Shown here piece after piece: positions 1 to 63,972 of a stretch of 64,000 nt of DNA; within the stretch, counting starts at the first letter, position 1, and each line of letters starts with the position of its first letter. This DNA comes from Demequina sp. (GTDB lineage Bacteria > Actinomycetota > Actinomycetes > Actinomycetales > Demequinaceae). The DNA is taken from assembly GCA_024707205.1 (NCBI GenBank), contig JANQAD010000001.1:1887979-1951978 (forward strand), given 5' to 3'. Under the pieces are notes generated by a model. It did not search any database, was not told where the DNA came from, and worked only from the letters and a program-made list of their open reading frames with translations. The translations under genes were made by a program, and so were the position numbers.

Positions 1-36
1 TCGGCGACGAGCGCCAAGACCACCACCGTCAAGTAA
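1..36 (+). CDS. 3' end of an upstream gene, possibly an Ig-repeat surface protein
   Basis: The frame opening at base 1 reads SATSAKTTTVK and stops at TAA 34-36. The Ser/Thr/Lys-rich tail ending TVK resembles the end of the GH9 cellulase at 9619-13995 (ending STKVK), which closes an Ig-like repeat. This suggests, weakly, another exported protein with the same C-terminal module. Only 11 codons are visible, so the product cannot be named. Confidence 0.45.
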   Translation, partial: SATSAKTTTVK

Positions 37-98
37 CCGGAGTGGGGCGCTCGCGGCCCTCCTCCACACAAATTAGCCGTTGAGGTTCACTGGCCATA

Positions 99-126
99 GC
101 GTCGGGCCTGGTATTAGGCCCGACGC
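99..126. terminator. Perfect 10-bp stem-loop built from the AGCGTCGGGC repeat word
   Basis: GCGTCGGGCC at 99-108 pairs with GGCCCGACGC at 117-126 across an 8-base loop. It lies between the end of the gene stopping at 36 and the end of the convergent dehydrogenase gene at 176, where a bidirectional terminator is expected. There is no T-run. Each arm carries the 9-bp core of the word repeated across the window, like the inverted uptake-sequence terminators of Neisseria and Haemophilus. Confidence 0.55.
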
Positions 127-175
127 CGTGTGCCACTCTGCATATTGTGTGGAGGAGCGCCGTGGCTGGGTATGG

Positions 176-954
176 CTACCAGACGGAGTCGCCGCGAATG
201 ACGGCGTCGGAGCCGCCATCCACGAAGACCACCTGACCGCACAGGTGCGTGTTCTCCTCGCTCGCGAGCCAGGCCAGCAGCCGCGCCACGACGATCGCCT
301 CCGCGAAGCCGTTGAGCGGCATCGGCACCATCGCTGCGAGCCCTGCCTTCGCCTCGTCCGTCTCCATGAGCGGGGCCACCATCGGCGTGAGAATCACCCC
401 TGGAGCCACGGCGTTGAGCGGGATGCCCTCACCCGCCCACTCGGCGGTCGGCGCGTTGCGACGGATCCAGCGTGAGAACCCCACCTTCGTGGAGGAGTAG
501 ATGAGCTGGCCGTGCTCGGCGTCGGCGGCAAGGACGTCGGCGCGCGCGAGGGCGGCGGCTCGTTGTTGGCCACGAGGGCCTCGACGAGCTCGTCGTCAAC
601 GGGCATGAGGCTCGCCATCGAGGAGACGCCAACGGCGCGCGGCGCGTCCGACTCATCGAGCATCGGCCTCAGCCGCTCGAGCGTGGCGACCATTCCGAAG
701 TAGTTGACGCCCACCGTGGCGACGGTGGGGGTGGCGAGGCCCGCGACGGCGACTATCGCGTCGATGCGGCCCCCGGTGAGTTCGTGCACGCGCTCTGTCA
801 TGCTCGCGCGGCCGGACTCCGTAGTGAGATCCACGACGATGTCCGCGTCGTGGATGTCGACACCGATCACACGGTGTCCTTGAGAAGCGAGCAGGTCGGC
901 GGTTGCCTTTCCAATGCCAGACGCCGACCCGGTCACCACATAGGTGCGGGTCAT
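176..954 (-). CDS. Short-chain dehydrogenase/reductase, 3-alpha-hydroxysteroid dehydrogenase type (frameshifted)
   Basis: NAD(P)-dependent oxidoreductase of the SDR family, probably cytosolic. The N-terminal part (954 downwards) has the Rossmann glycine motif TGSASGIGKA at residues 8-17 and a VSSMASL strand with the catalytic Ser region. After a 1-nt deletion near 560 the other frame continues through YSSTKVGFSRW (catalytic Tyr-xxx-Lys), the NAVAPG motif and the end FVDGGSDAVIRGDSVW. The joined protein is about 259 aa, normal for the family. The gene ends tail-to-tail with the upstream gene, with a hairpin between. The break is one missing G in the codon pair expected as GAG-GCC, so it may be a sequencing error rather than a pseudogene. 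Substrate is unknown; the steroid label reflects the subfamily only. Confidence 0.75.
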
Positions 955-993
955 GTTGACACCTCCTCGTTGAGGCCCCTCGTACCCTCCACG

Positions 994-2260
994 CTAGGAC
1001 TGCGGCGCCCCCTTGGTGCGGGACCTTAGGCCCCCGAGCGACCAGGTTCCGAGCACGCCCGCCAGCACGGCAGAGGCCGCGAGCAGCCACCCAAGCGAAC
1101 TCGCGCTCAACGACTCGGTGGCCAGTCGGATCCACAGCCCAACCAGCACCATGGGCGCGGCAATGAGGCTGGCCGTCACCCAGCGTCGGGCCGTGCCGCT
1201 GAGCAGGTGGGCCGCCCCGCTCGCGAGGCCAAAGCCGCCGATGCCGATGCCGAGCATCCACGCGGTGTGGGCGCTCACCGGTTCGTAAGGCTCCTCGAGG
1301 AGCTTGCCGAGCGCGGCCATGAGCGTCACGAGGGACATAGCAACGACCAGGTGCCCTATCCACAAGGCGCGAGGTGGAATCGCGTCTGCGGGCAGGAGCG
1401 CGAGGCCCGCGGTGCCGCGCACCACCGCGATGAAGAACAACTCGCATACCAGGGCGAACGCTCCCGCGGCTGCCACGAGGAGGGCTCGGTTCCAGTGCTC
1501 GCTCGCGTCCGCGGCACCTATCAACTGCACGATCCCCCTCCCCGAGCACAATGAGGATGAAGAGCCCCATGCGCTCGCTCAAGTGCGCGGTGTCGCCGCG
1601 CAGGGCGGTGATGGTGGTGGGCAGCTCACGGCCCTCGCGGCGATCGACCTTGTGCTGCGGCGCGCGCTGCGCGCGCTGCCCGCGCCGACTGCGCATCTCG
1701 AGCGCACGGTTGAGCCGCTCTTGCGCCTGGATCACGCGATTCTCGCCCGACATGGTGGCGAGCACCCACAGGTCAAAGGCGATCCCGACGGCCCACCAGA
1801 CGTAGCGCGCGTCCCCCTCGATCCAGAACGACACGATCCACGGGATCACCCCGAAGGTGGCCTGCACTATCGGCATGTCCACCACGACCGCGGCGCGCGA
1901 CCACGGCCGCGCGATGATGAGCCTGCCGATGACGTACGCGATGGCGAACGCGCGCGCGTGCTCCCCATAGATGCCCGGCACCGAGGCCGCCATGACGCCG
2001 AGTATCGCCATCGAGGCGAAGAGCACCGCGATCGATGCGTTGTCCGCGAGCAGGTTGCCGTACGTGGTCACCGACGCCCATACGATCCAGAACGCCACGA
2101 ACGCCAGCGCGAGCACGGCCACGTGCTGCCAGGGCTGGTCATGCTCCAGCTGGAACGCCACCACCGAGACGCCCGCGACGGCTACGAGATCGAAGAAGAG
2201 CTCGGGCCACGAGGCGTGTCGCTCCGACTCCTCGGCGGTGGCTGCGGCGGCTTCGCTCAT
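994..2260 (-). CDS. ltrA: Low-temperature-requirement A (LtrA) family membrane protein (frameshifted)
   Basis: Integral membrane protein of the LtrA family, first linked to low-temperature growth in Listeria; biochemical role unknown. ATG 2260 begins MSEAAAATAEE. The N-terminal family block SWPELFFDLVAVAGV follows, then many hydrophobic helices with a basic stretch near 1600-1750 and the conserved LFILIVLGE segment at about 1540-1565. There the frame breaks in a C5/G5 run (1534-1538); dropping one base joins it to GIVQLIGAAD and the remaining helices down to the stop at 994. The joined protein is about 422 aa, in the usual family range. An in-frame GTG at 2278 is an alternative start. It is transcribed towards the dehydrogenase gene and may be co-expressed with it. 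Confidence 0.75.
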
Positions 2261-2372
2261 GTGCCCATCCTGGCGCACCCACCCGGCCGCGCGCGGATTG
2301 GCGCCACCGGGGTCCCGTCCGGTACAGTTGGTACTCGCGTTCGCCGCCCTTTGGGTGAGCAGACGACGCTAG

Positions 2373-2445
2373 GGCCCCGTTGTGTAGCGGCCTAGCACGC
2401 CGCCCTCTCAAGGCGGTAGCGCGGGTTCGAATCCCGTCGGGGCTA
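2373..2445 (+). tRNA. tRNA-Glu (anticodon CUC)
   Basis: A 73-base cloverleaf. The acceptor arm GGCCCCG (2373-2379) pairs with CGGGGCT (2438-2444), with a terminal G-U and discriminator A at 2445. The anticodon stem CCGCC/GGCGG encloses loop CTCTCAA, giving anticodon CTC, which reads GAG. The T-arm contains GGGTTCGAATCCC. CCA is not encoded. A strong terminator follows 8 bases later. No integrase gene or partial tRNA copy was seen nearby, so there is no sign of use as an attachment site. Confidence 0.95.
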
Positions 2446-2452
2446 CGTTCAG

Positions 2453-2478
2453 ACCTCGCCGATCACGGCGAGGTTTTT
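2453..2478 (+). terminator. Intrinsic terminator of tRNA-Glu
   Basis: ACCTCGCCG (2453-2461) and CGGCGAGGT (2466-2474) form a 9-bp stem with loop ATCA followed by a T5 run (2474-2478), a classic rho-independent terminator. It overlaps the last codons of the convergent DCC-family gene that ends at 2463. Confidence 0.9.
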
Positions 2479-2915
2479 GCGTTCCCTGGCACGTCGGCCG
2501 TCGTCGCGAGGCGAGAACGCCATTCGGCGACCAGTTCCGCTGGGGGCACTCCGCACGCGGCGTCCTCTGCCTCGAGTCGGGCCCGACGCTTGGCAACAGC
2601 CCCGTACGCGGCGTCTCGCCAAGCGCGGGGGAGCGCCTTCGCGACTCCCAAGGCGCGCCACGGCCAACCGAGCCTCGTCACGATGGCGAGCACAGCGTCG
2701 GACCGCGTGAGGCCCCGCTGGCCGTCCCACACCACGATCGTGGACTGGATGACAGTGCCTTCGAGGCCAGCGGCCGCGACGATCGCCTTGCCCACCTCGC
2801 CCGCGCTGCCCGCGATCTTGAAGACGGCGCGCGTGTCATGGCGGATGAGCCACGCGACGAAGCCGTTGCACAGCGCGCACTCGCCGTCGAAGACGACGAT
2901 CGGTGTTGCGTTCAT
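2463..2915 (-). CDS. DCC-family thiol-disulfide oxidoreductase-like protein (DUF393)
   Basis: A 150-aa protein of the DUF393/DCC family, thioredoxin-like proteins named after a conserved Asp-Cys-Cys signature. Near the N-terminus VVFDGECALCNGFVAW (residues 7-22) has the D-G-x-C-x-x-C pattern. A later segment, SDAVLAIVTRLGWPWRAL, is also typical. There is no signal peptide or membrane helix. The physiological substrate of this family is not established. Its 3' end overlaps the tRNA terminator, and its 5' end is divergent from the giant exported protein, with a direct repeat between them. Confidence 0.8.
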   Translation of the reverse strand: MNATPIVVFDGECALCNGFVAWLIRHDTRAVFKIAGSAGEVGKAIVAAAGLEGTVIQSTIVVWDGQRGLTRSDAVLAIVTRLGWPWRALGVAKALPRAWRDAAYGAVAKRRARLEAEDAACGVPPAELVAEWRSRLATTADVPGNAKTSP

Positions 2916-2931
2916 GCGGCCAGGTTAGCCA

Positions 2932-2951
2932 ACGTGAGACCTACGTGAGAC
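2932..2951. repeat. Tandem 9-mer direct repeat in a divergent promoter region
   Basis: ACGTGAGAC occurs at 2932-2940 and 2943-2951, an 11-bp period or about one helical turn. It lies between the divergent DCC-family gene (start 2915) and the giant exported protein (start 3024). Same-face direct repeats are typical of activator or repressor sites. The GTGAGA core also occurs in the palindrome at 14936-14950. Confidence 0.4.
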
Positions 2952-3023
2952 TGACTCTGCGCCTCGCGCTAGGTACGTTTGGCAGGCCAAGGTCAGTCGC
3001 CGTGCCGTCAAGAGGGAGGCGTT

Positions 3024-6000: not shown

Positions 6001-9000
6001 ACGGTCAAGGTGGACGATCCTCCCGGCGCCGCGGAGGGGGACGATGTCGACAACGAGCTGAGCACATCGACGGGCGCCTTCGCGCCCACGATCGACACGC
6101 GACCCCTGAAGGTTGTCTTCATCCCCCTCGATTTCGGCTCGGCAACGGTCACGTGCGGTGACATCGCGACGCAGGCGAACATCTGGGTGGCATGGGCGCA
6201 GCAGCTGCTCCCGGTTCCCGACTCCGGCGTTCAGGCGAACCTGTCGTGCACGCCTGAGCTGCTGGCAACGAGCGCGAGCGCGGACGGCGTTGCCCAGGCG
6301 CTCGGCGAACTGGACCTCTTGGCCCGCGAGTCCGGCGTGGACTCCGTGGTTGGAATCGCCCCGCACGGCTGGCTCGGCAACGCGCTCGGCGACAGCTCCG
6401 TGGCCAGGGCGAGCGTCACGGGCCGGTCCATCATCATCGACTCGGGAGCGCCGCAGGCCACGCTCGCCCACGAGCTGGGCCACAACCTGGGGCTCGAGCA
6501 CTCGGAGCTGCCGCCCGCCACCGGGGCGTGGGTGAGCCGCAACCGCATCATGCACGGACCGGACTTCATGAGCGCCGTGACCGACGGCACCACCCAAGAG
6601 TGGGTGTCCGGCGAGACCTGGGACCTGCTCACTGGGGCCATCGCCGAGGGCTCCGCGCCGCAGCAGCCGGAGCCGGGCGGTTCCGCGTTCTGGGTGCGCG
6701 GAGTGATGCCCCTGAGCGGCGACAGCCTCAGCCTCGACCCGTTCATCGACGACGGCAACATCCCCAGCCCGCCGCCGGACGGCTCCGACGTCAGCAGACT
6801 CGTGGTGGTTCCGCTCGCCGGAGACGGCACCCCGAGCGGCGCGGCGGTCCAGGTTGGACTGACGCGAGACGAGAGTCTCGGCGGGGACGAGGGCGCGACG
6901 CTGCGCTTCGCGCAGAAGGTCGTTGCCCCTGCGGGCACCGTCAAGTTCCGGTTCATCGTCGACGGGACGACGGTGGCCGAGCGCACCCTCGGCAGCGCCC
7001 CCACGATCTCGTTGACTTCGCCCACCGCGGGAACCTCGCTTTCTCGCGCGGACACGATTCACGTGGCCTGGACCGTCAGCGACCCGGATACCAGCGATGA
7101 CGTACCCGCTCCAATAGTCAACCTGCTTGTCTCCGATGACGGCGGCGCCACGTGGCGCCCGCTCGCGAGCGGCTTCACGGGCAGTTCCGCGGACGTCGCC
7201 GTGCCGCGAGACCTCGGCGGGGACGCGATCGTCGTCCGCGCGGTGGCGTCGGATGGCGTGCATCTGCGCTGGGCCGACTCCGGCACCTTCAGCATCGACC
7301 CCGCACCCAAGCTCACCTCCGACCGCATTGCGTTCGTCTCGGGAGACCCGGACGTTGGGCGCCAGGGCACGGGGGGCTGGGCGGGGATCCGCCCCACGTG
7401 GGACCGGATCGGCACCATGAAGCCGGATGGCACGGACGTGCGTTTCTTCGCTCTGCCGACGGACGACGAGGACCCTCCGGGCTGGACCATGCCGGCCTCG
7501 TACTCGTCGCCCACGTTCGGACCAGACGGGCGCATCTACTTCCGCAAAGGCAACGGGCGCGTGGTGTCAACGGAGGCAGACGGCACCGATTTGCGCAACG
7601 AGACCACCTCCACGTCCGCGTACGGCGCATTCTCGACGGACGCCAACCGCAGGGGCTGCCTGTCGATGAGCGCGGACGGCAGTCGCATGCTCGTCGACCT
7701 CACAGTGTTCGAGCGATCGGGATCTGGCTGGACCCCGATCGCCGGGCTGGAGATGTTCCAGAACTTCTGGGGGCCCGCTCCCGGAAACTGGAACGGGCTG
7801 TTCCCGTTCTCCGGTGCCCCGATCATGAAGAGCGACCAATGCCCCGTGCTGTCGCCGGACGGCAAGCACGTGGCGCGCGCGTTCTCCGTCGAGGCGGAGA
7901 CTACGGCGCCCGGGGTCGCCGTCGTCACTGTCGATCCGGGAGCGACGGACTTCCTTCAGTGGCGCTTCGTGACCGAGGCCGCGGACTCCACGCGGATGAG
8001 CGCGAGTTGGCTCGACAACCACGACCTGTTGGTCACGAGGGGCAAGGCGGGCACCGATCAGGCGACGTTGCAGCGGGTCGACCTCTCGAACATCCCCGCG
8101 ACCGACACCTCGGGCGAACGGCCGGTGCTTCTCCCCGCGGCCGCGACCAACCTCGGCACGATCACCTGGCCGCAGAGCACCGCGCACGACCGCGCGCCCA
8201 AGTTGCTCTCGGACGGCCGCTACTACGGCGACGCGCAATGCGGCCTGTGGGTGGCGGGCACCTCCACCACTGTGGTGCCCTCGGGCTACGTCCCCGGCAG
8301 CTCCACATGCTTCACGCAGTTCGCGTGGGACGACGACGCCGGCTCGACCGGGGGCGGAGGCGACACCATGCTCGGCCTCGACCCCTCACAGGCCCCTGAC
8401 CCGGCCGCACCAGGGCCGGCTGATCCGGCGCTGGTCGAGGAGGGCCCGCCCGCTCCCGGCGCGGGGACCGACGCTTCCCACCCAACTCCTGACAGCGTCG
8501 GGCCGTCTTCGTTCACGATCGCGCCGGGGCAGACCGCCGACCTGGTGCTGAGCAACAACCTTGGCGCCCTGGTTCGCTACGAGGTGGATCCCAATGTGGT
8601 GCAGCCGCCCGGCGGGGGCACGGTGACCGCAACCGGCGACGTGGACAGCGCGACTGAGCTCATCACCACGTGGGGTCCCGTTACCGTGAGCGCCGATGCC
8701 GCCACCGCGGACGCGACGGGACCGGCACGGATCCGCGTGCGCGCCGTGGGCGCAACCAGTTGGGACACGATCGAGATCAACATCGCCACGCCGCTGCGTC
8801 CGTCCGCCTCAGATGACGAGCTCGTGGTGCAGGCCGGTGTCGAGGCCACATTCCCGGAGTCCGCGCTGCTGGACAACGACTCACCCGCGCGGCCGGGTGC
8901 GGAACTGTCGGTCATCCAGCTCAGCGGATACGACCGCGGGTCCGCGTTCCTCGACGCCGACGGCGTGGTCCACGTTGTCGCGTCTGATGCGGGAACCGGC

Positions 9001-9528
9001 ACGTTCACGTACGCGGTCGCGGAGGACAGATCGACCGCATACTCGACCGCCACGGTGACCGTCTCCGCTGCGGACACGCCCGTTCCGGTGCTCTCGATCT
9101 CGCTGAGCTCCGCGAAGGTCCACCGCGGCGACACCATCACGGTGACCGGCTCCGGCTTCGCGGCCGACGAAGAGGTCACGGCCGTGATGCACTCCGGCGA
9201 GCCGTTCGAGATGGGCGCGGTGAGCGCCGACTCCACGGGCCGAATCGTGCTCACGTGGACCATTCCGCAGACCGCCGAGATCGGCTCGCACAGGATCGTG
9301 CTGACCGGCGCCAGTTCCGGCACGGTGGAGGGCGCACTGCAAGTGGTCGCGCCGGAGACCCAGGGCGGTGGCGACCAGGGGACGGGCGGCGGCGGACAGT
9401 CGGGGACCGGCGGCGGGCTCTCCGGGACAGGCTTCGATGGCGGCGCCTACGCCGCGATCGCCCTCGCGTTGCTGTTGTGCGGCGCCTTCATGATCCTCAT
9501 CGCGCGGAGTCTCAAGCACCGCAACTGA
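3024..9528 (+). CDS. Giant exported protein: sialidase-like repeats, SGNH esterase, zinc metalloprotease, beta-propeller-like region, C-terminal anchor (two frameshifts)
   Basis: About 2,168 aa once two 1-nt gaps are closed. The GTG at 3024 follows GGGAGG at 3014-3019 and opens an RRRR signal peptide ending PPAAADTA. Modules in order: Asp-box repeats STDAGRTW (near 3260) and SSDGGNSW (near 3425), as in sialidase-type propellers; an SGNH/GDSL hydrolase with GDS (4441-4449), GAND (4846-4857) and HPNKAG (from 5386); a zincin motif HELGHNLGLEH (6469-6501); a TolB/propeller-like stretch (about 7320-8330); a Pro-rich linker (8380-8480); two Ig/cadherin-like domains (8800-9350); Gly-rich spacer, LSGTG, hydrophobic helix and KHRN tail, which fits a sortase-like or membrane anchor. 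The frame breaks near 4145 and 4290; adding one G at each restores continuity (EAANASGTP and GTKVADLDH). Carrying esterase and peptidase centres on one chain is unusual. Substrate is unknown; cell-surface or extracellular polymer attack is inferred. Confidence 0.75.
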
Positions 9529-9578
9529 GCGCTTCGCACGGCGCGCATCACCATCGAACACGATGACCGGTTGGGTCA

Positions 9579-9607
9579 TGACGCCAACCTACTTTCGGCC
9601 GGCGTCA
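9579..9607. terminator. Weak hairpin between convergent genes
   Basis: TGACGCC (9579-9585) pairs with GGCGTCA (9601-9607) across a 15-base loop, in the gap between the ends of the giant exported protein and the GH9 cellulase. There is no T-run, so a terminator role is tentative. Confidence 0.35.
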
Positions 9608-9618
9608 CGACCGCGCCG

Positions 9619-12600
9619 TTACTTCACCTTCGTGGACTTGGCGCCCTTCGCCGAGAGGTCGTGGTAGCCCTTCTTGTGAACCGTGACCTTGACCGAGAGG
9701 TACGAGCCGCGATCCGCCTTCACCAGGGTGTACGTGGACTTGGTCGCGCCCTTGATCGCCTTGCCATTGCGATACCACTGGTAGCTGTACGAATCCGGCT
9801 TGGGCGACCATGAGCCGACCTTGACCTTCTGCGTGTGCCCCACCTTCAGCGTTCCGGTGATCTTGGGGATCGTCCAGCCGGTGAAGTACAGCTTGGCGAT
9901 GGTCTTTGCGCCCGACGCTGTGGTCACCGTCGCGTACCCCGAGCGCTTGGCGGTGACCTTCACGGTGATCTTTGACCCAGCGTCCGCCTTCGTGAGCTTG
10001 TAGGTGGACTTGGTCGCCTTCGCGATCGCCTTGCCGTCCCGGTACCACTGGTACTTCACGGTAGTCGGCTGTGGCGACCACGTGCCCACGTGCGCCGTGA
10101 GCTTGTAGCCGGGCCACGCCGCCCCCGTGATTGTCGGCTTCGGCGTCTTCGTGAAGAACTTCGGCAGCGTCACCGAGTTCGAGGTTTTCGCAGTGGTCGC
10201 GTAGCCGGCCTTGCTCGCCGTCACCGTGACGGTGATCTTGGTGCCCGAGTCCGCGGCCTTGATGGTGTAAATGGCAGCCTTGGCGCCCGAAATTGCCTTG
10301 CCGTTGCGGTACCACTGGTACTTCACTGTGGCGGGTGCCGGTGCCCACGTGCCTGCGTGCGCCGTGAGCTTGGAGCCAACGGCCTTGGTGCCCGTGATGG
10401 TGGGCTTTGGCGCGGTGGTGAATGCGCGGTCGGGAAGCGTCACCCTGGCGTTGGGTGCCGAGAGGAAGCCTGCGGCCGCGCTCAGCGCCGAGTTCCAGTT
10501 GACCGTGATCTCATTTGTCGAGTACGACGTGATGTCGTCCACGTAGCACAGCTGCGGCGCGCAGTCCTTGTTGGGGTACAGCGCGGCGAACGTGGGGTCC
10601 CACGTCCCTGACTGCGCGTTGGGCCCTCCGGACACCGCGCCTTGCGGCGGGTGCGGGTACTCGGGGTTGAGCTGGGCCGCGAACCAGCGAGAGTGCTGGT
10701 TCTGGCTGTACTGGGTGCCGTAGCCCGTGACAAACGAGTTGGCGAGCGCGTTGCGCCCAAGGATGTAGTCCATGGACTCGTACGCCGCGTTCTTCAGGTC
10801 TGCGGAGCCGCTGAGGTCAAAGCCCGCCGCGAGCACCACGATGTTGTTGAGCACCTGGCTGTTGGAGCCCCAGACGTAGCCGTTCTCCGGAAGCGCCTGG
10901 CCGAACGCCTCGCCCTGCTGCACGTGAGCGATGGCGTTGGCGCCAGCGACCACCTGGTCGGCGATCGCGAGGCGGTCAGGGAAAGCGCTGTCAACGGTCG
11001 CGAGGTCGATCTTGGCGATTGCGTCCAGCTGGTCCCAACTGAAGCCGACCGTGGGGAACGAGTTCTCTGCGGCCACCGGCGAGGACTGGAGGAAGTCCTT
11101 GAACTCGGAGTCACCGGTGGTGAGGTAGAGCTCGGCGGCGGCCCAGTAGAACTCGTCGGTGACGTCGTTGTCGTTGTAGGGACCGCCGCCGTTGTTACCG
11201 TCGGCCGCCGTCGCGTAGATCGCGGGGTGGGCGAGCGCGGCCGCCCACGCGACCTTTGCCGCGTCGAGGAGATTCTGCGAATACGTGGGGTCATAGTCCG
11301 CGAACAGGCGTGCGCCCTGTGCGGCCGTGGCCGCGAGGTTGAGCGTCGCCGCGGTCGACGGGCGGTGCAGGTAGCGCGTCTTCGCGTCCTGGTCCGGCAT
11401 GAGCGGCAGGCCCGTCCAGCCGTAGTCGTGCACCTTGTGGTGCACCATGCCCGCGAGGTCCTGACCCTCCGGAACGGTCATCGACATCATGAAGTCGAGC
11501 TCCCACTTCGCCTCGTCGAGGACGTCAGGGATGCCGTTCGAAGACTCGGGGACGTTGAGCGAGCCGTCGCCGAGCGCATCGGTCGCCTCCTGTCCCGCGC
11601 GCTTGGCACGCTCGTACGTGCCGAGTAGCTGGGCGGTGGCGATGCCGCCGTTGACCACGTACTTGCCGTGGTCTCCCGCGTCGTACCAGCCGCCCACCAC
11701 ATCGAGCGTGTAGTCGCACGTCCACGCCTCGCCGTACACGACGAGCGACTCCGCCTCCGGCTGGCAGCCGACGTTGTCGTCGCCTTGGTTGATGTCGCTG
11801 CCGCCTGCGGTCGAGGCGTGACCGGCGGGGCGCGCGTAGTCGTCGCCGACAATGGACGCCTCGATCGGCGTGCCGGAGCGCACCAGGTAGAAGTAGTCGA
11901 GGGCGTCCTTCAGCAGTCCGCCGTACAAGGACGAGCCGATCGTGAACGGATAACTGGTGTCGCCGTCGGCCGTCAGTACGTAGGTGCCGTCCGGGTAGGT
12001 GCCCGCGAAGTCGATCACGTGCACGTCCTCGTTGGACGACTCGTCTGTTCCCTTGGGCGTGGATATGCCCGACGCCACGGTTGTGTCATCGCTCGTGCGC
12101 TTCAGTTCCCATGCGACCGGGTTGGTGGCGTCCGTCACCAGGGTGGCGCGCTTGGGGCCGTCGGTGAGGTAGCCCACCTGGTTGACCTTCACGCGCGGCC
12201 CGGTCTCCGGGGCGTAGGCGGGCTTGGTGCCGCCGCTCACCAGGGACACGTTGTCCAGGCAGAACGTCCACGGGCTCGACGCGCCGCCAAGCTGGAAGGC
12301 GATCTGGGCGTTGGCGCTCGCGCTGTTCATCGTGAAGTACACGACGTAGTCCTTCGCCGTGGCGCCGGGCGTCTCGTTGTACTCGGTGTACACGGTGTAG
12401 GGCGATTGCCCAAGGCCAACCAGCGCGCGCATCGGGCCGCCTGTGCCGGAGGCGCTGAAGCGAAGGGTGTACGGGCCCGCGGGAAGCTGCATGCCGTCGT
12501 AGTGGACGTTGATGTCCCAAGGGTTCGTGGTGCCGCCGGGAACCGCCACGCAGAGGGCGCCGCTGTCCGTGGTGGAGCTCGTGACGCCGTCGGTCGACCA

Positions 12601-17076: not shown

Positions 17077-17637
17077 GTGCCGCGTCGCGTGCTCATCGGC
17101 ATCAGCGGCGGTCCCGGCACGGGCAAGTCGACCTTCGCCGCGCGCACCGTCACTGAGCTCGCCGCAAAGGGTGTCACGTCCGTTGTGGTGCCCATGGACG
17201 GCTTTCACCTGCCCGACGCTGTCTTGAGTGAGCGGGGGCTGCTGGCTTCGAAGGGGTCGCCAGCGACGTTCGATCGGGCCGGGTTCGAGGCCTTGCTTGA
17301 GCGCCTTCGCGACCCGGCGCTCGCGACCTTTGCGCCCGCGTACTCGCGCGAGCTCCACGAGGTGATTCCGGACGCGATCGAGGTGGGCCCCGAGGTGCAG
17401 ATAGTGCTGGTTGAGGGCAACTACCTGGGGCTTTGGGCGTCCACGGCGGCGCTTCTCGACGAGGTGTGGAAGCTCGAGGTGCCGTGGGAGGTGGCCCGCG
17501 AGCGGCTCATCGCGCGCCGGATCGCAACGGGCCGCGAGCCTCGAGAGGCGCAGGAGTGGGTGGACCGCGTCGACTCTCTCAATTTCATGCTCGTGCGGGA
17601 CTCGTTCGCCACGCGGGTGATCACGGACTTGGTATAG
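17077..17637 (+). CDS. P-loop nucleoside/nucleotide kinase family protein (uridine kinase/phosphoribulokinase superfamily)
   Basis: A 186-aa cytosolic kinase. GTG 17077 starts MPRRVLIGISGGPGTGKSTF, with Walker A GGPGTGKST at residues 11-19. MDGFHLPDAVL is the substrate-binding DGFH motif of the uridine kinase/pantothenate kinase fold. LVEGNYLGL matches the family's Walker-B-like strand, followed by R-rich lid segments (ERLIARRIATGREP). The family includes sugar kinases linked to ABC transporters (FrcK-like), but the substrate cannot be told from sequence. It lies immediately after leuD without an obvious metabolic link. One AGCGTCGGGC word lies at 17211-17220, reversed. Confidence 0.8.
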   Translation: MPRRVLIGISGGPGTGKSTFAARTVTELAAKGVTSVVVPMDGFHLPDAVLSERGLLASKGSPATFDRAGFEALLERLRDPALATFAPAYSRELHEVIPDAIEVGPEVQIVLVEGNYLGLWASTAALLDEVWKLEVPWEVARERLIARRIATGREPREAQEWVDRVDSLNFMLVRDSFATRVITDLV

Positions 17638-21150: not shown

Positions 21151-22148
21151 CCCGCGCGACCGTCATCGGCGCCGGGGCTTGGGGAACGACGTTCGCCTCG
21201 GTGCTCACCGACGCCGGCACAAGCACGACGCTGTGGGGACGTGACCCGCAGTCCCTCGCCGAGATCTCCGCTCACGGCCGCAACACGCGAGCGCTCCCAG
21301 ACCTCCAACTGGCCTCCGGCATCGCCACCACGATGGACGCCGAGGAGGCGCTCGCGGAGGCGGACATTGTCGCCGTCGCCGTTCCGGCGCAACGGGCGCG
21401 GAGCATCATGGCGCCTCTCGCGAAGCTCATTCCCAGCGATGCCGTCGTCGTCTCGCTCATGAAGGGCGTGGAGGCGGGAACGCACTCGCTCATGTCTGAG
21501 GTTCTCAAGGAGGTCCTCGGCGTGGGCAACGAGCGCACGGCGGTGGTCTCGGGGCCGAACCTCGCTCGCGAGATCGCCGCCCGCCAGCCGACCGCAACCG
21601 TCGTGGCCTCGACCGAACTCGAAGCCGCCGAGCGGGTCGCCGCCGCAACAGCGTCGGGCTATTTCCGGCCGTACACGAACACCGACGTCGTTGGCGTGGA
21701 ACTGTGCGGCGCCTACAAGAACGTGATTGCCGTGGGCGTTGGGGTCTCCGACGGCCTCGGCTTCGGTAACAACACCACAGCAACCGTCATCACCCGCGGG
21801 CTCGCGGAGATCTCGCGCCTGGGCTTGGCGCTCAACGCGCGCCCGGAGACTTTCAGCGGCCTCGCCGGCATGGGCGACCTCATCGCGACCTGCGCGTCGC
21901 CGCTCAGCCGCAACCACATGCTCGGCAAGCGGATCGGTCAGGGGGCGACGCTGGACGAGGCCCTCGCATCCGGTTCCGGCACGGCGGAGGGCGTGACGTC
22001 CGCGAGGTCGATTCAGGAGCTCGCGGCGAGCCTTGGCGTGGACGTGCCGATCTGCGACGCCGTGGTCACGATGCTTGCCGGGGCCGTGGCACCGCAGGAG
22101 GTGCTTGGCCTGCTCCTCAGCCGCCCTCGCAAGGCCGAGGTGGGCTAG
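21147..22148 (+). CDS. gpsA: NAD(P)-dependent glycerol-3-phosphate dehydrogenase
   Basis: GpsA (333 aa) reduces dihydroxyacetone phosphate to sn-glycerol-3-phosphate for phospholipids. The N-terminus TRATVIGAGAWGTTFASVL has the Rossmann GAGAWGT motif, SGPNLAREIA follows, GAYKNVIAVGVGV carries the catalytic Lys, and RNHMLGKRIGQG is the substrate-site loop. GTG 21147 overlaps the plsC stop by 4 bases and its own stop TAG overlaps the GTG of ddl. Confidence 0.96.
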   Translation: MTRATVIGAGAWGTTFASVLTDAGTSTTLWGRDPQSLAEISAHGRNTRALPDLQLASGIATTMDAEEALAEADIVAVAVPAQRARSIMAPLAKLIPSDAVVVSLMKGVEAGTHSLMSEVLKEVLGVGNERTAVVSGPNLAREIAARQPTATVVASTELEAAERVAAATASGYFRPYTNTDVVGVELCGAYKNVIAVGVGVSDGLGFGNNTTATVITRGLAEISRLGLALNARPETFSGLAGMGDLIATCASPLSRNHMLGKRIGQGATLDEALASGSGTAEGVTSARSIQELAASLGVDVPICDAVVTMLAGAVAPQEVLGLLLSRPRKAEVG

Positions 22149-29588: not shown

Positions 29589-31812
29589 CGCCCCAGGCAG
29601 GCGGCGAGCGGCTCGCGGAGCCGCTGACCCGCGCGCTGGGCACGCGAACCGCAGCGGCCCTCGAGAAGCTCGGCCTCGCCACCGTCGGAGACCTGCTGCG
29701 CCACTACCCCCGCCGCTACGGCACGCCCGGCGAGTTCACCGACATCCGCTCGCTGCGCACGGGGAGCACGTGACCGTCATGGCGGAGGTTCGCTCCGCCA
29801 CGGTGCGGACCATGCGCTCCCGCGGCGGAGCCATGCTCGAGGCGATCGTCTCCGACGGCCGCGACACCCTGCAGCTGACGTTCTTCGCCAAGCGAGCCGG
29901 CGTGCTGCGCATGCACGAGGACAAGTTGCGCCCCGGCCGCACCGGCCTCTTCACGGGCACGGTCGGCGAGTACCGGGGGAAGCGTCAGCTCACGCATCCC
30001 GACTACATCCTCGTTGGCGTTGACGCCGCCGACGCCGACGCGGCCATCTACGAGGCGCTCCGCCCCATCCCCATCTACCCCGCAGCCGCATCGGCCCCCA
30101 CGTGGCGCATCGCGCGGGCCGTGCGCACGGTGCTTGATCCGCTGCAAGAGGGTGACGTTCCGGACCCGATTCCGGCCGAGCTCCGCGAGCGCGACGACCT
30201 CCCAACCCTGCTCGAGGCCCTCCGCCTCGTCCACGAACCGGAGCACGAGTCCGACCACGAGCGAGGCCGTGCTCGCCTCCGTTACGAGGAAGCGCTGGTG
30301 CTCCAGACCGCCCTCGCGCGGAGGCGAGCGGAGCACGCCTCCCTCGCCGCCGTTGCTCGGCCGCCGCGCGCCGGGGGACTCGTTGACGCTCTCGACGCCC
30401 GCCTCCCCTTCGCACTCACCGAGGGGCAGCTCGCCGTGGGCGAGGAGATCTCGCGCGACCTCGCGGGTGACGTCCCCATGCTGCGGCTGCTGCAGGGCGA
30501 CGTCGGGGCCGGCAAGACGGTCGTGGCGCTGCGCGCGATGCTTCAGGTTGTCGACGCCGGGGGCCAGGCCGCGCTGCTCGCCCCAACAGAGGTTCTCGCA
30601 GCGCAGCACGTGCGCGCCCTGCGCGCACTCCTGGGGCCCCTTGGCGACGGGGGAATGCTGGGAGGCGCCGAGAACACGACCCGAGTAGTGCTGGTGACGG
30701 GCTCACAGGGCTCACGGGAGCGTCGGGCGGCCTTGGCGGAGGCGGCGGGAGGGGCCGCGGGAATCGTGGTCGGCACGCACGCGCTGCTCAGCGAGACGGT
30801 GCAGTTCGCGGACCTTGGCCTGGTGGTCGTGGACGAGCAGCACCGCTTTGGCGTGGAGCAGCGGGACGCGCTGCGGTCGCGGGCGCAGACGCCGCCCCAC
30901 ATGCTCGTCATGACCGCAACGCCCATCCCGCGCACCGTGGCGATGACCGTGTTCGGAGACCTCGAGACGTCCGTGCTCGCGGAGCGGCCAGCGGGGCGCG
31001 CGCACACCGTGACGCACCTGGTACCCGCCGACAACCCCGTCTGGATTGACCGCACGTGGGCGCGGGTGCGCGAGGAGGTTGACAAGGGCGGGCGGGTATA
31101 CGTCGTGTGTGCTCGGATTGACCCCAGTGAGCTGCCCGACGCTGTTGACGACTCGGAGGCGGACGACGTCCTTCCCTTGGAGTCGGCTAAGGAGCGTCCC
31201 CCGCTCGCCGCGGCCACCGAGGTGGCCGCGATGCTCGCGGAACGTCCGGAGCTCGCGGGCGTCCGCATTGGCCTGATGCACGGCCGGCTCTCGTCCGAGG
31301 ACAAGGACGTCGCCATGGCGCGGTTCGCCTCAGGGGAGACTCCCGTGCTTGTCTCGACCACCGTGATCGAGGTGGGGGTGGACGTTCCGGAGGCGACCGC
31401 GATGGTGATCCTCGACGCCGATCGTTTCGGCATCTCGCAACTGCATCAGCTGCGCGGGCGCGTGGGGCGCAGCTCCGCGCCGGGAGTTTGCCTGCTGGTC
31501 ACGTCGGCGGAGGAGGGGACCCTCGCCCACGAGCGGCTCACCGCGCTCGCGGCCACCACGGACGGCTTCGAGCTCGCGGAGAAGGACCTTGAGCTGCGGC
31601 GAGAGGGCGACGTGCTTGGCGCGGGTCAATCGGGCCGGTCTTCGCTGCGGCTGCTGCGCGTGGTTCGCGATGCCGCGCTGATCGCGAAGGCGCGGGACGA
31701 TGCGCGCACTGTCGTTGAGCAAGACCCGAGCCTTGACGCTCACCCGGCCCTGGCGTCGGCCATTCGCGACTGGCTTGGTGAAACCCAAGAGGAGTTCCTG
31801 GAGCGGGCCTGA
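29585..31812 (+). CDS. recG: ATP-dependent DNA helicase RecG (frameshifted near the 5' end)
   Basis: RecG (about 742 aa) remodels stalled forks and Holliday junctions. The wedge/OB part is split: GTG 29585 reads to RSLRTG, then a missing G in the run 29761-29764 shifts the frame. Adding it gives TGEHVTVMAEVRSATVR and the long remaining frame. Helicase motifs follow: LLQGDVGAGKTVVAL (Walker A), VVDEQHRFGVEQR (DEQH box), MTATPIPRT, LMHGRLSSEDKDVAMARF and RGRVGRSSAPGVCLLV, then the RecG C-terminal LELRREGDVLGAGQSG. As this is a conserved repair helicase with an intact remainder, the shift is probably a homopolymer error. Its start overlaps the FakA-like stop by 4 bases. Confidence 0.92.
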
Positions 31813-40201: not shown

Positions 40202-41824
40202 CTATCCCTCGACCTCGACGTTCCACTCGGCGCGCGTGCCCGGATGGTCCGCGGCGGGAGCCACCGGATCCAGCGTGAAGGTGCCGTTGCGGCGCAGCGC
40301 GCGGCCCGCGAGATTGGACGTCCCGGAGTGCCGGTTGCGGGCGCCGGCCGGCCCGATCCCATTGTCGGTGACGACCAGGCTGAGACGCCCGTCCGCGACG
40401 GACAGATCGATGTGCACGGCCTTGGCGTCCGCGTGCCGCGCCACGTTCGAAAGCAGCTCGCGGAGGACCGCGACCACGTCGTCGCCAAGGCTGACGTCTC
40501 CCGCCACGGCATCGTCGACGCCGCTCCAGTCGGTGTGGAGCGTTGGGGCGAAGCCGAGCGAGTCGTGCGCCATGATCAGTTCGCGGTTGACACGCTCGCC
40601 GAACGGCTCGCTCGAGCGGTGTCCCGCGAGCGTGCTCATCACGCCGCGCACCTCGTGCTGGGCGCGCTTGACGTGGTCGAGCGTGCGGGAGAGGCGCTCG
40701 GCGGCCTCGGGGGACACGTCCGCGGAGATCGCCTCGATCTGCATCGCCGTGGCAAACAGCTCCTGTGAGACGAAGTCGTGGAGATCGTCCGCGAGCCGCT
40801 CTCGCTCCTCGAGCAGTTGGCTGACATTCTTGGCGTGCGCGAGTTCGGACAGCGTCAGCGCGATCGCCGCCTGATTGGCGAACCGCTGCGCGGTCGCGAG
40901 ATCGTCGGCATCGAAGGGCCGCTGCCCCTGGTCTCGCCACAGCATCAGCAGCCCGACGCTGCGGTCACCTGCGCGCAGAGGCGCGTACAGCGTCGGGCCC
41001 AGTTCTTGGACCGGCATCAGAATGGTGCCCCCAGGCGGGGCCGCGGCGATCGTGCCCTCGCCGGACCGGATGGTGGAGAGTGCGTAGCCATCCTCCGGCA
41101 GGGCGAGGCCGAGCATCTCGGCGGCACGCGGCCCGGACGTGAACTCCATGACCCACGAGTCCCTGAGGCCGGGGAGGACGAGAGCCGCGTGGCCGGCCCC
41201 CGCGAGGCGCTTGGCGGACTCGACGACCACCGCGAGTGCTTCCTCGTCGCCGGGATTGCTGAGCAGCCCGGTGGTGATCTGTTGCGACGCCTCGAGCCAG
41301 CGCTCGCGGCTCACCGCGCGCTCATACAGCTGTGCGTTGTCGATCGCCACGGACCCCGCGGCGGCGAGCGCGAGCACCGCGGCCTGGTCGGCGTCCGTGA
41401 AGCCGGACTCCTTGTCCGCGAGGTAGAGGTAGCCGTACACCTCCCCTCGAACCTTCAGCGCGGTGCCAAGGAAGGCGCCCATGGGAGGGTGTCCTGGGGG
41501 GAAGCCCGCGAACGAAGGGTGCTTGGTCAGCTCATCGATGACGATGACGCCCTCATCTGGGATCCGCGCCAGCGTGGCGACGTGATTTGGTGCGCGGCCA
41601 ATCCTCTCCCACACCCCGTCACGAACGCCCGTGAAGTGGAATTCGATGCTGGTGCCGTTGGAGTCGACGATGTTAATGGCCCCGTAGCGGGCTCCCGTCT
41701 GCTCCGTGGCCGCCGAGATGAAGCGGTCCAGGATGCTTGGCAGGTCGAGCTGCGAGTTCAGCGAGAGGATCGCGTCGAGCAGCGGGCTCCCGGTCAAGGC
41801 GTCATCACGTCCCACGTTGCCCAC
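40202..41824 (-). CDS. GAF-domain sensor histidine kinase (DevS/DosS-like)
   Basis: Soluble-looking kinase of about 540 aa. I chose GTG 41824 because GGAG lies about 10 bases upstream; GTG 41860 would extend it by 12 residues. Two GAF domains (about residues 25-165 and 190-335) precede a HisKA_3 dimerisation segment with ERLADDLHDFVSQELFA (phospho-His) and an HATPase region with LRELLSNVARHADAK (N box) and VVTDNGIGPAG (G1). GAF1 contains GFPPGHPPMGAFLG, matching the FPPxHPPM segment of mycobacterial DosS/DosT, whose His is, as I recall, the heme ligand; oxygen, NO or redox sensing is therefore plausible but unproven. It carries an inverted pair of the AGCGTCGGGC word at 40951 and 40989. Confidence 0.88.
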   Translation of the reverse strand: MGNVGRDDALTGSPLLDAILSLNSQLDLPSILDRFISAATEQTGARYGAINIVDSNGTSIEFHFTGVRDGVWERIGRAPNHVATLARIPDEGVIVIDELTKHPSFAGFPPGHPPMGAFLGTALKVRGEVYGYLYLADKESGFTDADQAAVLALAAAGSVAIDNAQLYERAVSRERWLEASQQITTGLLSNPGDEEALAVVVESAKRLAGAGHAALVLPGLRDSWVMEFTSGPRAAEMLGLALPEDGYALSTIRSGEGTIAAAPPGGTILMPVQELGPTLYAPLRAGDRSVGLLMLWRDQGQRPFDADDLATAQRFANQAAIALTLSELAHAKNVSQLLEERERLADDLHDFVSQELFATAMQIEAISADVSPEAAERLSRTLDHVKRAQHEVRGVMSTLAGHRSSEPFGERVNRELIMAHDSLGFAPTLHTDWSGVDDAVAGDVSLGDDVVAVLRELLSNVARHADAKAVHIDLSVADGRLSLVVTDNGIGPAGARNRHSGTSNLAGRALRRNGTFTLDPVAPAADHPGTRAEWNVEVEG

Positions 41825-55226: not shown

Positions 55227-57982
55227 ATGAGCGTGGACACGACAACCGAGGCACCAAAGACCCCCTGGTGGTCCATGGGGCCCGACGCTGTGGCGAGCGA
55301 GCTTTCCACCTCACCTGACGGCCTCACGGGTGCCGAGGCCGCGTCGCGACTACAGAAGTACGGCCGCAACCAGCTGACGGCCACAAAGCCCGCGTCGTTC
55401 ATGCAGTTGTGCCTCAAGCAGCTCGCCGACCCGATGAACATCATGCTCGCGGCCGTGGCGGTCATCTCGTTCGCGATTGGGCAGGTATCCACGGGAATCC
55501 TGGTGGCGCTGCTGGTCGCGTTCAACGTGCTTTCCGGCGCGCGGCAGGAGCAGAAGGCGCAGGCGAGCGTGGACGCGCTCGCGACCATGCAGGTGCCGCA
55601 GGTGCGCGTGCACAGGGACGGCGCGGTCGTGTCGATCCCCGCGCCCGAGCTGGTTCCCGGCGACGTGGTGGAGCTCGAGGCCGGCGACATCGTTCCCGCC
55701 GACGCGCGCATCATCCGCGCCACCACGCTCGAGACCCAGGAGGCGGCGCTCACCGGCGAGTCGACGCCCATCGAGAAGTCTGCGACCGAAACCGCGGTCG
55801 ATGCGGTGCTCGGAGACCGCAAGTCGATGGTCTACCAGAACACGTCGGTGACGCGCGGGACGGCGACAGTCATCATCGTCGCCACCGGAATGACCACCGA
55901 GATGGGCGCGATCGCGACGATGCTCGCGAACGTGGAGCGCGTTCGCTCCCCCTGCAGAAGGAGTTGGGCTCCCTCACCAACGTGATCGGTGCGGTCGCGT
56001 GGGGCGCGGTGGCGATCATCATCGGAATCGGCCTGCTTCGCGATCAGTCCTTCGCGGACCTCATGTTCCTGGGCACGGCCGTCGCGATCTCCGCGATCCC
56101 CACCGGCATGCCGACGTTCGTGCAGCAGATGCTCGCGTGGGGAGCGAATCAGCTCGCGAGCTCTAAGGCGATCATCGCCTCCCTCAACGACGTGGAGACG
56201 CTCGGCGCCACGAGCGCGATCTGCTCGGACAAGACGGGCACGCTCACCATGAACGAGATGATGGCGCGCTCCATCTGGGTCGGCGGCAAGACGTACGCGG
56301 TCGATGGCGCCGGTTACTCGTTCCAGGGCGCGGTGCGCAGCGCCGACGGCGAGCCCGTTGAGCGCGCGCAACAGCTCGCATACGCGCTCGCCCTGCCGAA
56401 CGACGCGACCGTGAGCGCCGACGGCGTGGTGATCGGCGACCCCACCGAGGCGGCGTTCGTGGTGCTCGCGGAGAAGCTCGGCGTGGACGTCCCGGAGACC
56501 AAGCGCAAGTTCCCCCGCCTCGCCGAGGTCCCCTTCGACTCTGACTACAAGTTCATGGCCACCTTCCACAAGGTGGACCTCGCTGGCTCCGAGCGCGTGG
56601 TCATCATCGCGAAGGGCGCCCCGGACGTGCTCCTTGCCCGCTCCACACATGCCTTCGTGACCCGCGACAAGCAGGTTCCCGTGGCCGAGCTCTCTGACGA
56701 CGTCACCACGGAGATCGAGTACCGCTCCTCTCAGGGGCTGCGCACGCTCGCGCTCGCGATCCGCGTGGTCGAGGACACGGACAAGGACGAAGCCGCCGCG
56801 ATCGCCGACCCGATGGCCGCGGTCAAGGACCTCACCTTCATCGGCGTCGTCGGCATCGTGGACCCGCTGCGGCTCGAGGCAAAGCTCGCCGTGGAGGAGG
56901 CAAAGGCGGCCGGCATCACGGTCCGGATGATCACGGGCGACCACGTGGTCACCGCCGCCGCGATCGGCAAAGAGCTTGGGCTCACGGGCGGCGGCATGGC
57001 TGGCGTCGACTTCGCCGCGCTTTCCGACGCTGAGGTTGACTCCCGCTTGGACGACCTCTCGGTCTTTGGTCGGGTCACGCCGCAGGACAAGCTGCGCCTG
57101 GTTCAGCGGCTGCAGAACCGCGGCGAGGTGGTCGCCATGACCGGTGACGCGGTCAACGACGCGGCGGCGATCAAGCAGGCGGACATCGGCGTCGCCATGG
57201 GCTCGGGCTCCGAGGTGACTAAGCAGGCCGCGAAGCTCGTGCTCACGGACGACAACTTCGCCACGCTGGTGCACGCGGTCCGGCTTGGCCGAGCGGTGTA
57301 TCAGAAGATCGCCAACTACCTCACCTTCCAGATGGGGCAGCTCATCTCACTCGTGCTGCTCTTCCTGGTGGCGAGCATCTTCAACGTGAACGAGGGCATG
57401 GCTCTCACGCCCATCCAGGTGCTGGTGCTGAACTTTGCCGTGGCGATCTTCGCGGTGATCGTGATCATCATGGAGCCCGAGCAGTCCGGTCTCATGCAGC
57501 GGCCCCCGCGCAACGTCAACCAGGGCATCGCGAGCGGCAAGAACATCGTCCGATGGCTGCTCTACGGCGCCGTGCTGTTCCTCGTCTCGTTCGCGCCGCT
57601 GTGGATCTTCGGCGACGACCTGCAGGGCGCCAACGAGCCGTCCTATCCCGTCACGATGACCTACGTGATCATGGCGTTCGGCACCCTCGGCACCGCGATC
57701 GCACTGCGCCGCGACCCCGACTTCGGCTTCAAGGCGCCCTGGGGCAAGGCGATGCAGCTGCAGATCTGGCCCGTGCTGTTCATCATCGCGTCCACCGAGC
57801 TGGGCTTCCTGCAGCGCTGGATCGGCACCACGTCGCTCAGCCCCAACGAGTGGCTCATCTGCATCGTGATGACGCTCATCGTCGTTGGCGTGGTGGTGGG
57901 CGACACTGCGCTGCGGCGCAAGAAGCCGGCCTCGGTGGCACCGACGGTTCAAGAGGCCGTGGAGCCCGCTCGAGCGCGCTGA
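55227..57982 (+). CDS. P-type cation-transporting ATPase with variant motifs (frameshifted)
   Basis: About 918 aa; ATG 55227 follows AAGGAGG (55216-55222). Cation-ATPase N domain, then TGES actuator motif (AALTGESTPIEKS), phosphorylation site SDKTGTLTMNEM (near 56229) and a C-terminal set of six helices. One C is missing in the run 55948-55952; adding it restores RSPLQKELGSLTNVIG. Two variants stand out: the M4 ion motif reads IPTGMP (56096-56113) where Ca2+ and Na+/K+ pumps have PEGL and H+ pumps PVGL, and the hinge reads TGDAVNDAAA instead of TGDGVNDAPA. Overall it looks like type II, but the transported ion cannot be predicted. It splits proB from proA. Confidence 0.85.
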
Positions 57983-60490: not shown

Positions 60491-61072
60491 GTGACCCGGA
60501 TCGGCATTCTCGGCGGCACTTTCGATCCCGTCCACATCGGCCACCTCGCGGCCGCGTCCCAGGTTCACCACGACCTCGGCCTCGACGTCGTCCTTCTCGT
60601 CCCAGCGAATGCCCAGCCTTTGAAGCCGCCCCCAACAGCGTCGGGCAGCGACAGGCTGGCGATGTGCCAAGCCGCGATAGCGGGAGACCCAAGGCTCAGC
60701 ACCAGCGACGTTGATCTCGTTCGGGGAGGCGCCACCTATTCGGTCGACACCCTGGCGGACCTTCGCAGTGAGCACCCTGTGGCGGACCTTTTCTTCATCA
60801 CGGGGGCGGACTCGCTCGCGACCCTGCAGCGGTGGAAGGACTACGAGACGCTGATCACACTGGCCACGTTCGTGGGAGTCACGCGGCCCGGTCATTCGTT
60901 GACACAGTTGGATGCACCACACGTCCTGGTACCGGTTCCAGCGTTGGCGGTATCCTCGACAGATATTCGCGACCGTGTGAGGGCTGGCGCACCCATCCGC
61001 TACCTTGTGCCCGACGCGGTTGCACAGTACGTAGACGACCATCAGCTCTATCTCGGAGGATTGCATGACTGA
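60491..61072 (+). CDS. nadD: Nicotinate-nucleotide adenylyltransferase
   Basis: NadD (193 aa) adenylates nicotinate mononucleotide to deamido-NAD. TRIGILGGTFDPVHIGHLAA carries the nucleotidyltransferase HxGH motif, FFITGADSLATLQRWKDY the substrate block and VSSTDIRDRVRAG the ATP-binding ISSTxxR end. GTG 60491 directly follows the small membrane gene. Its last codons overlap the next gene's start by 8 bases. Confidence 0.96.
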   Translation: MTRIGILGGTFDPVHIGHLAAASQVHHDLGLDVVLLVPANAQPLKPPPTASGSDRLAMCQAAIAGDPRLSTSDVDLVRGGATYSVDTLADLRSEHPVADLFFITGADSLATLQRWKDYETLITLATFVGVTRPGHSLTQLDAPHVLVPVPALAVSSTDIRDRVRAGAPIRYLVPDAVAQYVDDHQLYLGGLHD

Positions 61073-63345: not shown

Positions 63346-63972
63346 GTGACCCGCGTATTCATCGTCCGCCACGGCGAGACCGAGTGGAACGCGCGCGGGC
63401 TCTTGCAGGGGACATCGGACGTGCCGCTCGCCGACGCTGGGCGTGAGCAGGCGCGGCAGATGGCTTCCGCGCTCGCTCGCTTGGTATCGCCCGACGCTGT
63501 GCTCGTCTCCTCGCCGCTGTCCCGCGCGCACGACACCGGTTTGGCGCTCGGTTCCGTATTGGGACAGCCCGTCGCGGTTGACGAGCGGCTGCGGGAGCGC
63601 GCCTACGGACCGTGGGAGGGCATCACGGCCGAGGCGAGGGAGGCCGGCTGGCCCGCCGAGGTGGAGGCCTGGCATGAGGGCGGCAACCCTCACCTGGACG
63701 GCTTCGAGGTGCACGACGTGGTGGCCGCGCGCATGTCCGAGGCGATCGAGGAATGGGCGTCCCGAGCGCCGTCCGACGTTGTGGTCTTCTCCCACGGATC
63801 CTCGTCGCGCATCGGGATGATGGGGCTGCTCGGGCTGTCTCTGAGCCACCGGACCCTGGGAAATCTGGGCAATACGTGCTGGTCCCGGCTGCGGCGTAGG
63901 CCCGACGGCCAATGGACGCTCGAGCGCCACAACGTGTGGGTGGACGTGCTGTACCCGGGGGTGGGGCAGTGA
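63346..63972 (+). CDS. Histidine phosphatase family protein (second of three in tandem)
   Basis: A 208-aa paralogue of the preceding gene, 9 bases downstream. TRVFIVRHGETEWNARGLLQGTSDVPL, LRERAYGPWEGITAEAR and VVFSHGSSSRIGMMGLLGL carry the same catalytic set. The two proteins also share the end NLGNTCW or YLGNCTW, pointing to gene duplication. Its stop overlaps the GTG of a third member. Confidence 0.9.
   Translation: MTRVFIVRHGETEWNARGLLQGTSDVPLADAGREQARQMASALARLVSPDAVLVSSPLSRAHDTGLALGSVLGQPVAVDERLRERAYGPWEGITAEAREAGWPAEVEAWHEGGNPHLDGFEVHDVVAARMSEAIEEWASRAPSDVVVFSHGSSSRIGMMGLLGLSLSHRTLGNLGNTCWSRLRRRPDGQWTLERHNVWVDVLYPGVGQ

Follow-up and report, generated by a model that had tools for sequence, protein, structure and literature searches.

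A repeated word in Demequina sp. as a putative DNA uptake tag, and the status of its inverted pairs

Close to the left edge of the window (the whole 64,000-nucleotide stretch analysed here, C1:1887979-1951978 of a Demequina sp. genome) two copies of a short repeated word face each other across a small loop. The first-pass annotation described this pair as a terminator-like stem-loop and expected paired copies to support an uptake-signal-like system. The locus raises the question of what the pair does and what the word is for. The genome is one contig of 2,538,242 bases with 68% G+C. Apart from whole-genome counts, the word statistics for this genome come from 864 kb of sampled sequence (the window and 40 further stretches of 20 kb each; 34% of 2.54 Mb), in which a purpose-written script called 886 genes, 89.5% of the sequence being coding. 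Coordinates are collected in Table 1.

The stem-loop at 99-126 and the element around it

The stem-loop exists as described. GCGTCGGGCC (99-108) and GGCCCGACGC (117-126) form perfect 10-bp arms around the 8-nt loop TGGTATTA between two convergent gene ends, and both the TAA of the left gene at 34-36 and the minus-strand end at 176 were found. The repetition of the word is also real: GCGTCGGGCC occurs 16 times in the window versus 1.55 in dinucleotide shuffles, and none of 100 shuffles reached 16. Its unit, however, extends beyond these ten bases: the word is better given as about ACAGCGTCGGGC, which the right arm at 117-126 matches less well (ACGGCGTCGGGC). The observation as a whole was thus partly confirmed.

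Inward-facing pairs of exact GCGTCGGGCC with 3-33 nt between them number one in the whole genome against 0.77 expected from single-copy density. For ACAGCGTCGGGC with at most one mismatch and start-to-start distances of 13-62 bases, three inward pairs were counted in 864 kb against 1.37 expected. Inward pairs are therefore no commoner than single copies predict, which is the outcome that the first-pass annotation itself had named as telling against its proposal. A clustering of the word at gene ends is at best faint. Intergenic word sites reach 1.27 per kb between convergent, 0.84 between tandem and 0.62 between divergent called genes, and 14 of 72 intergenic sites lie between convergent genes, where 12.8% of all intergenic bases are found (p 0.07 versus the rest); the sites at 99-126 do not enter this count, as the left gene runs off the edge of the window. 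Convergent intergenic density is thus slightly raised, but inverted word pairs at gene ends are not enriched in this genome.

A role of the paired words as transcription terminators would suit the position of the stem between convergent gene ends and the strong folding of region 36-176 (z -4.9 on the plus and -7.2 on the minus strand). However, the G+C-rich stem is followed by no T-run on either strand, a terminator scan of positions 1-20000 did not have it among its predictions, and inward pairs occur at chance frequency. Moreover, the fold of 36-176 owes much to a 99-bp inverted-repeat element, including the stem formed by its ends. Terminator function at 99-126 is not indicated; we regard it as very unlikely and reject it as the main explanation. 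The pair is a chance-level encounter of two word copies inside this separate element.

The element occurs four times in the genome (C1:517868, 681408, 1528985 and 1888037), always measuring 99 bases end to end and bounded by the identical 12-base ends CTCCTCCACACA and TGTGTGGAGGAG. All four carry CCTGGTA near the centre, on one strand or the other, while their interiors otherwise diverge; GCGTCGGGC is found five times within them, 0.46 being expected. Its end word is absent from 12 relatives (100 kb each), and Rfam gave only two matches for the four loci, both under the family gathering scores. It is conceivable, though doubtful, that the 99-126 stem serves the element, as a mobile, regulatory or recombination site, instead of the word system. 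Such a role is suggested by the fixed length, the identical ends, the central CCTGGTA and the enrichment of GCGTCGGGC, and would be compatible with the reading of the word preferred below. Nevertheless, the two words form an inverted pair in just one of the four copies, the interiors differ, and a search of viral contigs, plasmids and phages returned nothing alike.

Table 1. Positions of the word copies, the inverted-repeat element and neighbouring genes in the window
Feature	Position	Strand	Remark
Left gene, 3' end	1..36	+	in frame to stop TAA 34-36; starts in L021
99-bp inverted-repeat element	59..157	.	holds the reported hairpin and central CCTGGTA; one of four genome copies
Element left end CTCCTCCACACA	59..70	+	identical in four copies
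Word copy ATAGCGTCGGGC	96..107	+	left hairpin arm; 1 mismatch vs ACAGCGTCGGGC
Word copy ACGGCGTCGGGC	118..129	-	right hairpin arm; 1 mismatch vs ACAGCGTCGGGC
Element right end TGTGTGGAGGAG	146..157	-	identical in four copies
SDR-like gene	176..954	-	two overlapping frames 176-484, 394-954; family match for 176-484 only
Exact word ACAGCGTCGGGC	8492..8503	+	
Exact word ACAGCGTCGGGC	9910..9921	-	
Exact word ACAGCGTCGGGC	17211..17222	-	
Exact word ACAGCGTCGGGC	21648..21659	+	
Exact word ACAGCGTCGGGC	31134..31145	-	inside RecG-type helicase gene 29770-31812
Word copy GCAGCGTCGGGC	40951..40962	-	left member of outward pair, offset 36
Exact word ACAGCGTCGGGC	40987..40998	+	right member of outward pair
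Exact word ACAGCGTCGGGC	55280..55291	-	
Exact word ACAGCGTCGGGC	60635..60646	+	
Exact word ACAGCGTCGGGC	63489..63500	-	

Distribution and pairing of the word in its own genome

Genome-wide, GCGTCGGGCC is present 243 + 259 times on the two strands while its reversed control is found 10 + 6 times (502 vs 16), and the core CAGCGTCGG 534 + 528 times with 21 + 29 for the reversed control (1062 vs 50). In 864 kb the form with the best support is ACAGCGTCGGGC; including its weaker flanks it reads approximately GGCCACAGCGTCGGGC[CA]. The word is G+C rich and not palindromic. ACAGCGTCGGGC sites in the same sequence number 101 exact, 207 with one mismatch and 430 with two. Sixty letter-shuffled 12-mers gave means of 0.6, 14.6 and 200 for these classes and maxima of 10, 134 and 1108, so only the excess of exact and one-mismatch sites exceeds all shuffles. 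The copies are spread along the chromosome: each of 43 stretches of roughly 20 kb contains between 2 and 17 CAGCGTCGG (mean 8.0, variance 9.5), and in 42 of them both strands are represented.

Called genes contain 72 of the 101 exact copies and the remaining 29 lie between genes, an intergenic excess with p 3e-7. Two strand/frame settings account for 62 of the 72 genic copies. Synonymous-codon shuffles within genes (n=20) leave on average 1.5 exact 12-mers and at most 4, which places the constraint on DNA. Codon use or base composition might be suspected as the source of the enrichment in a genome of 68% G+C with a G+C-rich word, but this explanation is rejected by the synonymous shuffles together with the reversed control, and we give it practically no credence.

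Other repeated words were seen in the 864 kb as well: GGTTTAGGCA (15 vs 0.65), TACCACTGGT and its mirror TACCAGTGGTA (11 each) and AGCGCCTC (249 vs 119).

The second inverted pair, noted by the first-pass annotation inside a sensor kinase gene, does exist, in what proved to be a GAF/HisKA_3 histidine kinase gene, but the words of this pair point outward and not inward. The plus copy is exact, whereas the minus copy contains no exact GCGTCGGGCC (only the one at 40990 is exact), and 24 nt separate the two 12-mers. Outward pairs of this kind proved to be a class. A search around the 308 sites in 864 kb that have no more than one mismatch, with partners required to match at least 9 of 12 bases, gave ten distinct outward pairs exactly 37 bases apart start to start; the other 435 combinations of offset and orientation have a mean of 0.43 pairs and a largest value of 3 (Poisson p 4e-11 for ten at 37). 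Offsets 35-38 together give 17 outward pairs in 864 kb, ten inside called genes and seven between them, and since they are so often inside genes they are poor terminator candidates. Among the ten pairs at offset 37, the central parts of the spacers have a mean identity of 0.42 versus 0.35 in random sets, whose largest value among 500 was 0.41, so a shared origin of some pairs is possible.

No excess of outward pairs at offsets 35-38 was detected in nine relatives (100 kb each; 2 vs 2.8 expected). Exact dialect words within 70 bp of each other form 10 inverted and 12 direct pairs in these relatives, each against about 4.1 expected, which means that words in these relatives tend to lie close together but show no preference for the inverted arrangement. 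The outward pairs are a real class, so far seen in this species alone.

Dialects of the word within and beyond the genus

Words were counted in 41 whole Demequina genomes (CAGCGTCGG in 37 of these), and 12 relatives were sampled, each over 100 kb. In eight of the 12 genus mates one word of the same frame stands out clearly by its excess: AGCATCGGCC in G009, CGCATCGGCC in G034 and G013, GGCATCGGC in G017, TGCATCGTCCC in G021, GGCATCGTCCC in G026, and CGCATCGTCC in G004 and G062. G003 and G011 carry a weaker GCGTCGGCC or GCGTCGGGC form, and no clear word was present in the 100 kb each of G001 and G027. The leftward CC.C of the own word is common to several relatives. Beside its dialect word, G026 (L093-L097) has a second strong one, TGTGGCGGAGC, with 15 copies in 100 kb versus 0.1.

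In whole genomes GCATCGGCC attains up to 2018 copies (G014) and GCATCGTCC up to 1864 (G060), the strands being alike. With the leading word defined by an arbitrary threshold of 360 copies, 36 of 41 genomes have one: GCATCGGCC in 17, GCATCGTCC in 16 and CAGCGTCGG in three (G000, G003, G011). The other five (G001, G005, G012, G027, G032) show no strong word among the three tried. The groups overlap at the edge, as GCATCGGCC still occurs 134-664 times in genomes of the GCATCGTCC type.

In a recG tree covering 39 genomes (all but G026 and G028) the dialect labels need 8 changes, compared to a mean of 18.1 for shuffled labels. The three CAGCGTCGG genomes occupy three separate lineages of this tree and not one clade. 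As for the recG genes themselves, those of the 17 GCATCGGCC-type genomes contain 25 own nonamers and no GCATCGTCC, those of the 14 GCATCGTCC-type genomes in the alignment contain 21 own nonamers and 9 GCATCGGCC, and those of the three CAGCGTCGG genomes have 1, 0 and 0 copies of CAGCGTCGG. At the two word sites of the own recG, the alignment is gap-free in 39 of 39 and 38 of 39 rows, favouring substitution in place. Insertion of the word into genes as a repeat is unsupported at these two sites.

Beyond the genus, counts of CAGCGTCGG in 22 genomes of the order show nothing like the rich Demequina genomes. GCATCGGCC in 110 genomes from other families of the order peaks at 144 per Mb (G120). The 17 Demequina genomes of that dialect range over about 130-750 per Mb, which means that the poorest among them overlap with the outsiders. 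A search for words in other families, made in single 11-20 kb stretches of 16 genomes, found 9- or 10-base words with 6-8 copies in three stretches (G043, G048, G052), with scores matching those of equal Demequina stretches, so other words may exist elsewhere. The words in question, TGACCTCGGT, TTCCGCGGA and TATGCCGCG (L114 of G043, L117 of G048 and L119 of G052; each present 6-8 times in 20 kb), may be either repeats of local origin or words of their own.

About a thousand evenly spread copies would also suit a binding site of a chromosome-wide protein acting in recombination, segregation, nucleoid organisation or self-marking instead of an uptake tag, and the five genomes with comparable genes and no strong word agree with such a role. 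We consider it improbable: the word is not palindromic, sampled chromosome halves show no strand bias (93 vs 76 and 89 vs 87, the halves not being tied to a located origin), and the word differs between sister species while its frame stays, which would be unusual for a housekeeping site. The orientation bias along the replichore that would mark a Chi-like or segregation site is not seen in the 534/528 strand counts or in the 42 of 43 stretches with mixed strands (origin not located).

Competence genes and comparison with known uptake systems

We propose that the word is a genome-wide self-tag working like a DNA uptake sequence, and judging from sequence comparisons we put the probability of this at roughly three in four. 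The features that mark such systems are found here: an excess of copies, their presence on both strands and throughout the chromosome, constraint at the DNA level, dialects congruent with phylogeny and, in gene content, a type IV pilus with ComEA/ComEC, several of these matches being under curated cut-offs. The uptake-signal-like system of the first-pass annotation is therefore well supported by counts, DNA-level constraint, dialects and genes, but the paired copies in which it sought support give none, and its interpretation overall was partly supported. Presumably, a type IV pilus receptor would bind the word on outside DNA, the pilus would then retract, and ComEA/ComEC would import one strand. 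Recombination would then bring alleles that bear the word into the genome, leading to accumulation of the word and to a drift of lineages towards dialects of their own. Several observations weigh against this proposal: the frameshift in the own comEC, the five genomes that lack a strong word although four of them have comEC, the near absence of CAGCGTCGG from recG in the three genomes of that type, the want of a fold match for the candidate receptor pilin, and the inverted pairs at gene ends, which are not enriched.

The pilus operon of the genome (C1:2289976-2302763) codes for PilB-, PilT-, PilC-, pilin- and PilM-type proteins and includes weak PilN and PilO matches; a ComEA-type protein is encoded at C1:2038125-2038814. 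PilT and PilM pass curated cut-offs, while PilB, PilC and ComEA are below the NCBIfam ones and the putative prepilin peptidase has no NCBIfam match at 1e-6. Across the genus, the PilT family is over its cut-off in all 41 genomes and the ComEC family is present in 40, the exception being G005, which is 85% complete; four of the five genomes without a strong word have comEC. In the own genome a frameshift interrupts comEC (C1:2038811-2041070, L017). Since several nearby putative housekeeping genes (named from their translations) are likewise split or frame-shifted, and so is the SDR-like gene at 176-954, sequencing or assembly indels are the likely cause, a real loss of comEC being a possible alternative.

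As a lead only, a lone minor-pilin-like gene (C1:1017893-1018309; L010, L124) may code for the DNA receptor. Its product has 138 aa and two cysteines, and has relatives in the genus. The residues after its WC motif seemed by eye to follow the dialect, but identity over the whole protein does not sort with the dialects and there is no clean covariation; for several genomes the best match is another pilin type. A scan of named genomes with a pilin alignment gave nine loci, all of them in Demequina, and several of their pilins are identical to pilins of the genus mates compared here, among them D. soli with G016 (of the GCATCGTCC type) and D. pelophila with G021, which fixes the genus as Demequina. 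A pilin was recovered from 23 of 30 loci. A retry with the seven missed loci and 11 new stretches gave a pilin in nine of 18, none of these nine being in a tree, and no pilin in the other nine (all seven missed loci, G012 and G017). Comparison with PDB sequences hit chiefly the N-terminal region of ordinary pilins, PDB sequence and fold searches returned no ComP-like match, and the structure model (mean pLDDT 75.9) had no PDB fold match at E 0.001.

Sequence tags for uptake are placed only in Neisseriaceae and Pasteurellaceae in the accessible parts of two reports (PMC5031613, PMC13020248). In Neisseriaceae, the DUS GCCGTCTGAA resembles the Demequina word in being a short non-palindromic word with about a thousand or more copies, both intra- and intergenic, on both strands and with dialects largely following phylogeny, and inverted pairs at terminators or gene ends are usual there, according to the available part of the source (PMC3630211). 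In contrast, the Demequina word is not evidently related to it, belongs to another phylum and has no enrichment of inverted pairs at gene ends. We call the word uptake-sequence-like and not a DUS because uptake is only predicted, the words have no evident relation and gene-end pairs are not enriched.

The Pasteurellaceae USS, for which an excerpt of PMC13020248 gives the consensus AAGTGCGGT, likewise appears to be a genome-wide self-tag with variants, a strong core and weaker flanks; unlike it, the Demequina word has a Gram-positive host, and the two are unrelated as judged by eye. A minor pilin was proposed as the Pasteurellaceae receptor (PMC12616744, in part). Closer in taxonomy, the actinobacterium Micrococcus luteus has comEA/comEC and pilus-dependent uptake, which in Demequina is predicted from gene content. 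However, it uses Flp/Tad pili and the accessible text mentions no uptake sequence (PMC6370729), whereas Demequina has PilB/PilT/PilC/PilM-type genes. None of the literature matches listed, taken at the level of titles and abstract openings and with preprints and most subscription papers outside the search, concerned an uptake sequence in Actinobacteria or Demequina.

We find it fairly probable, from the sequence relations described, that Demequina would possess an uptake specificity independent of Neisseriaceae and Pasteurellaceae, with an unrelated word in at least three dialects and, in the species studied, outward pairs of about 37 bp that perhaps reflect two receptor contacts per DNA. If the word is an uptake tag, it would be a third, independent case and in a Gram-positive phylum, implying that such tags evolve repeatedly and need no outer membrane. 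With 41 searchable genomes and three dialects, the receptor could be sought by covariation, and the several dialect switches could serve to test whether uptake bias alone drives such words.
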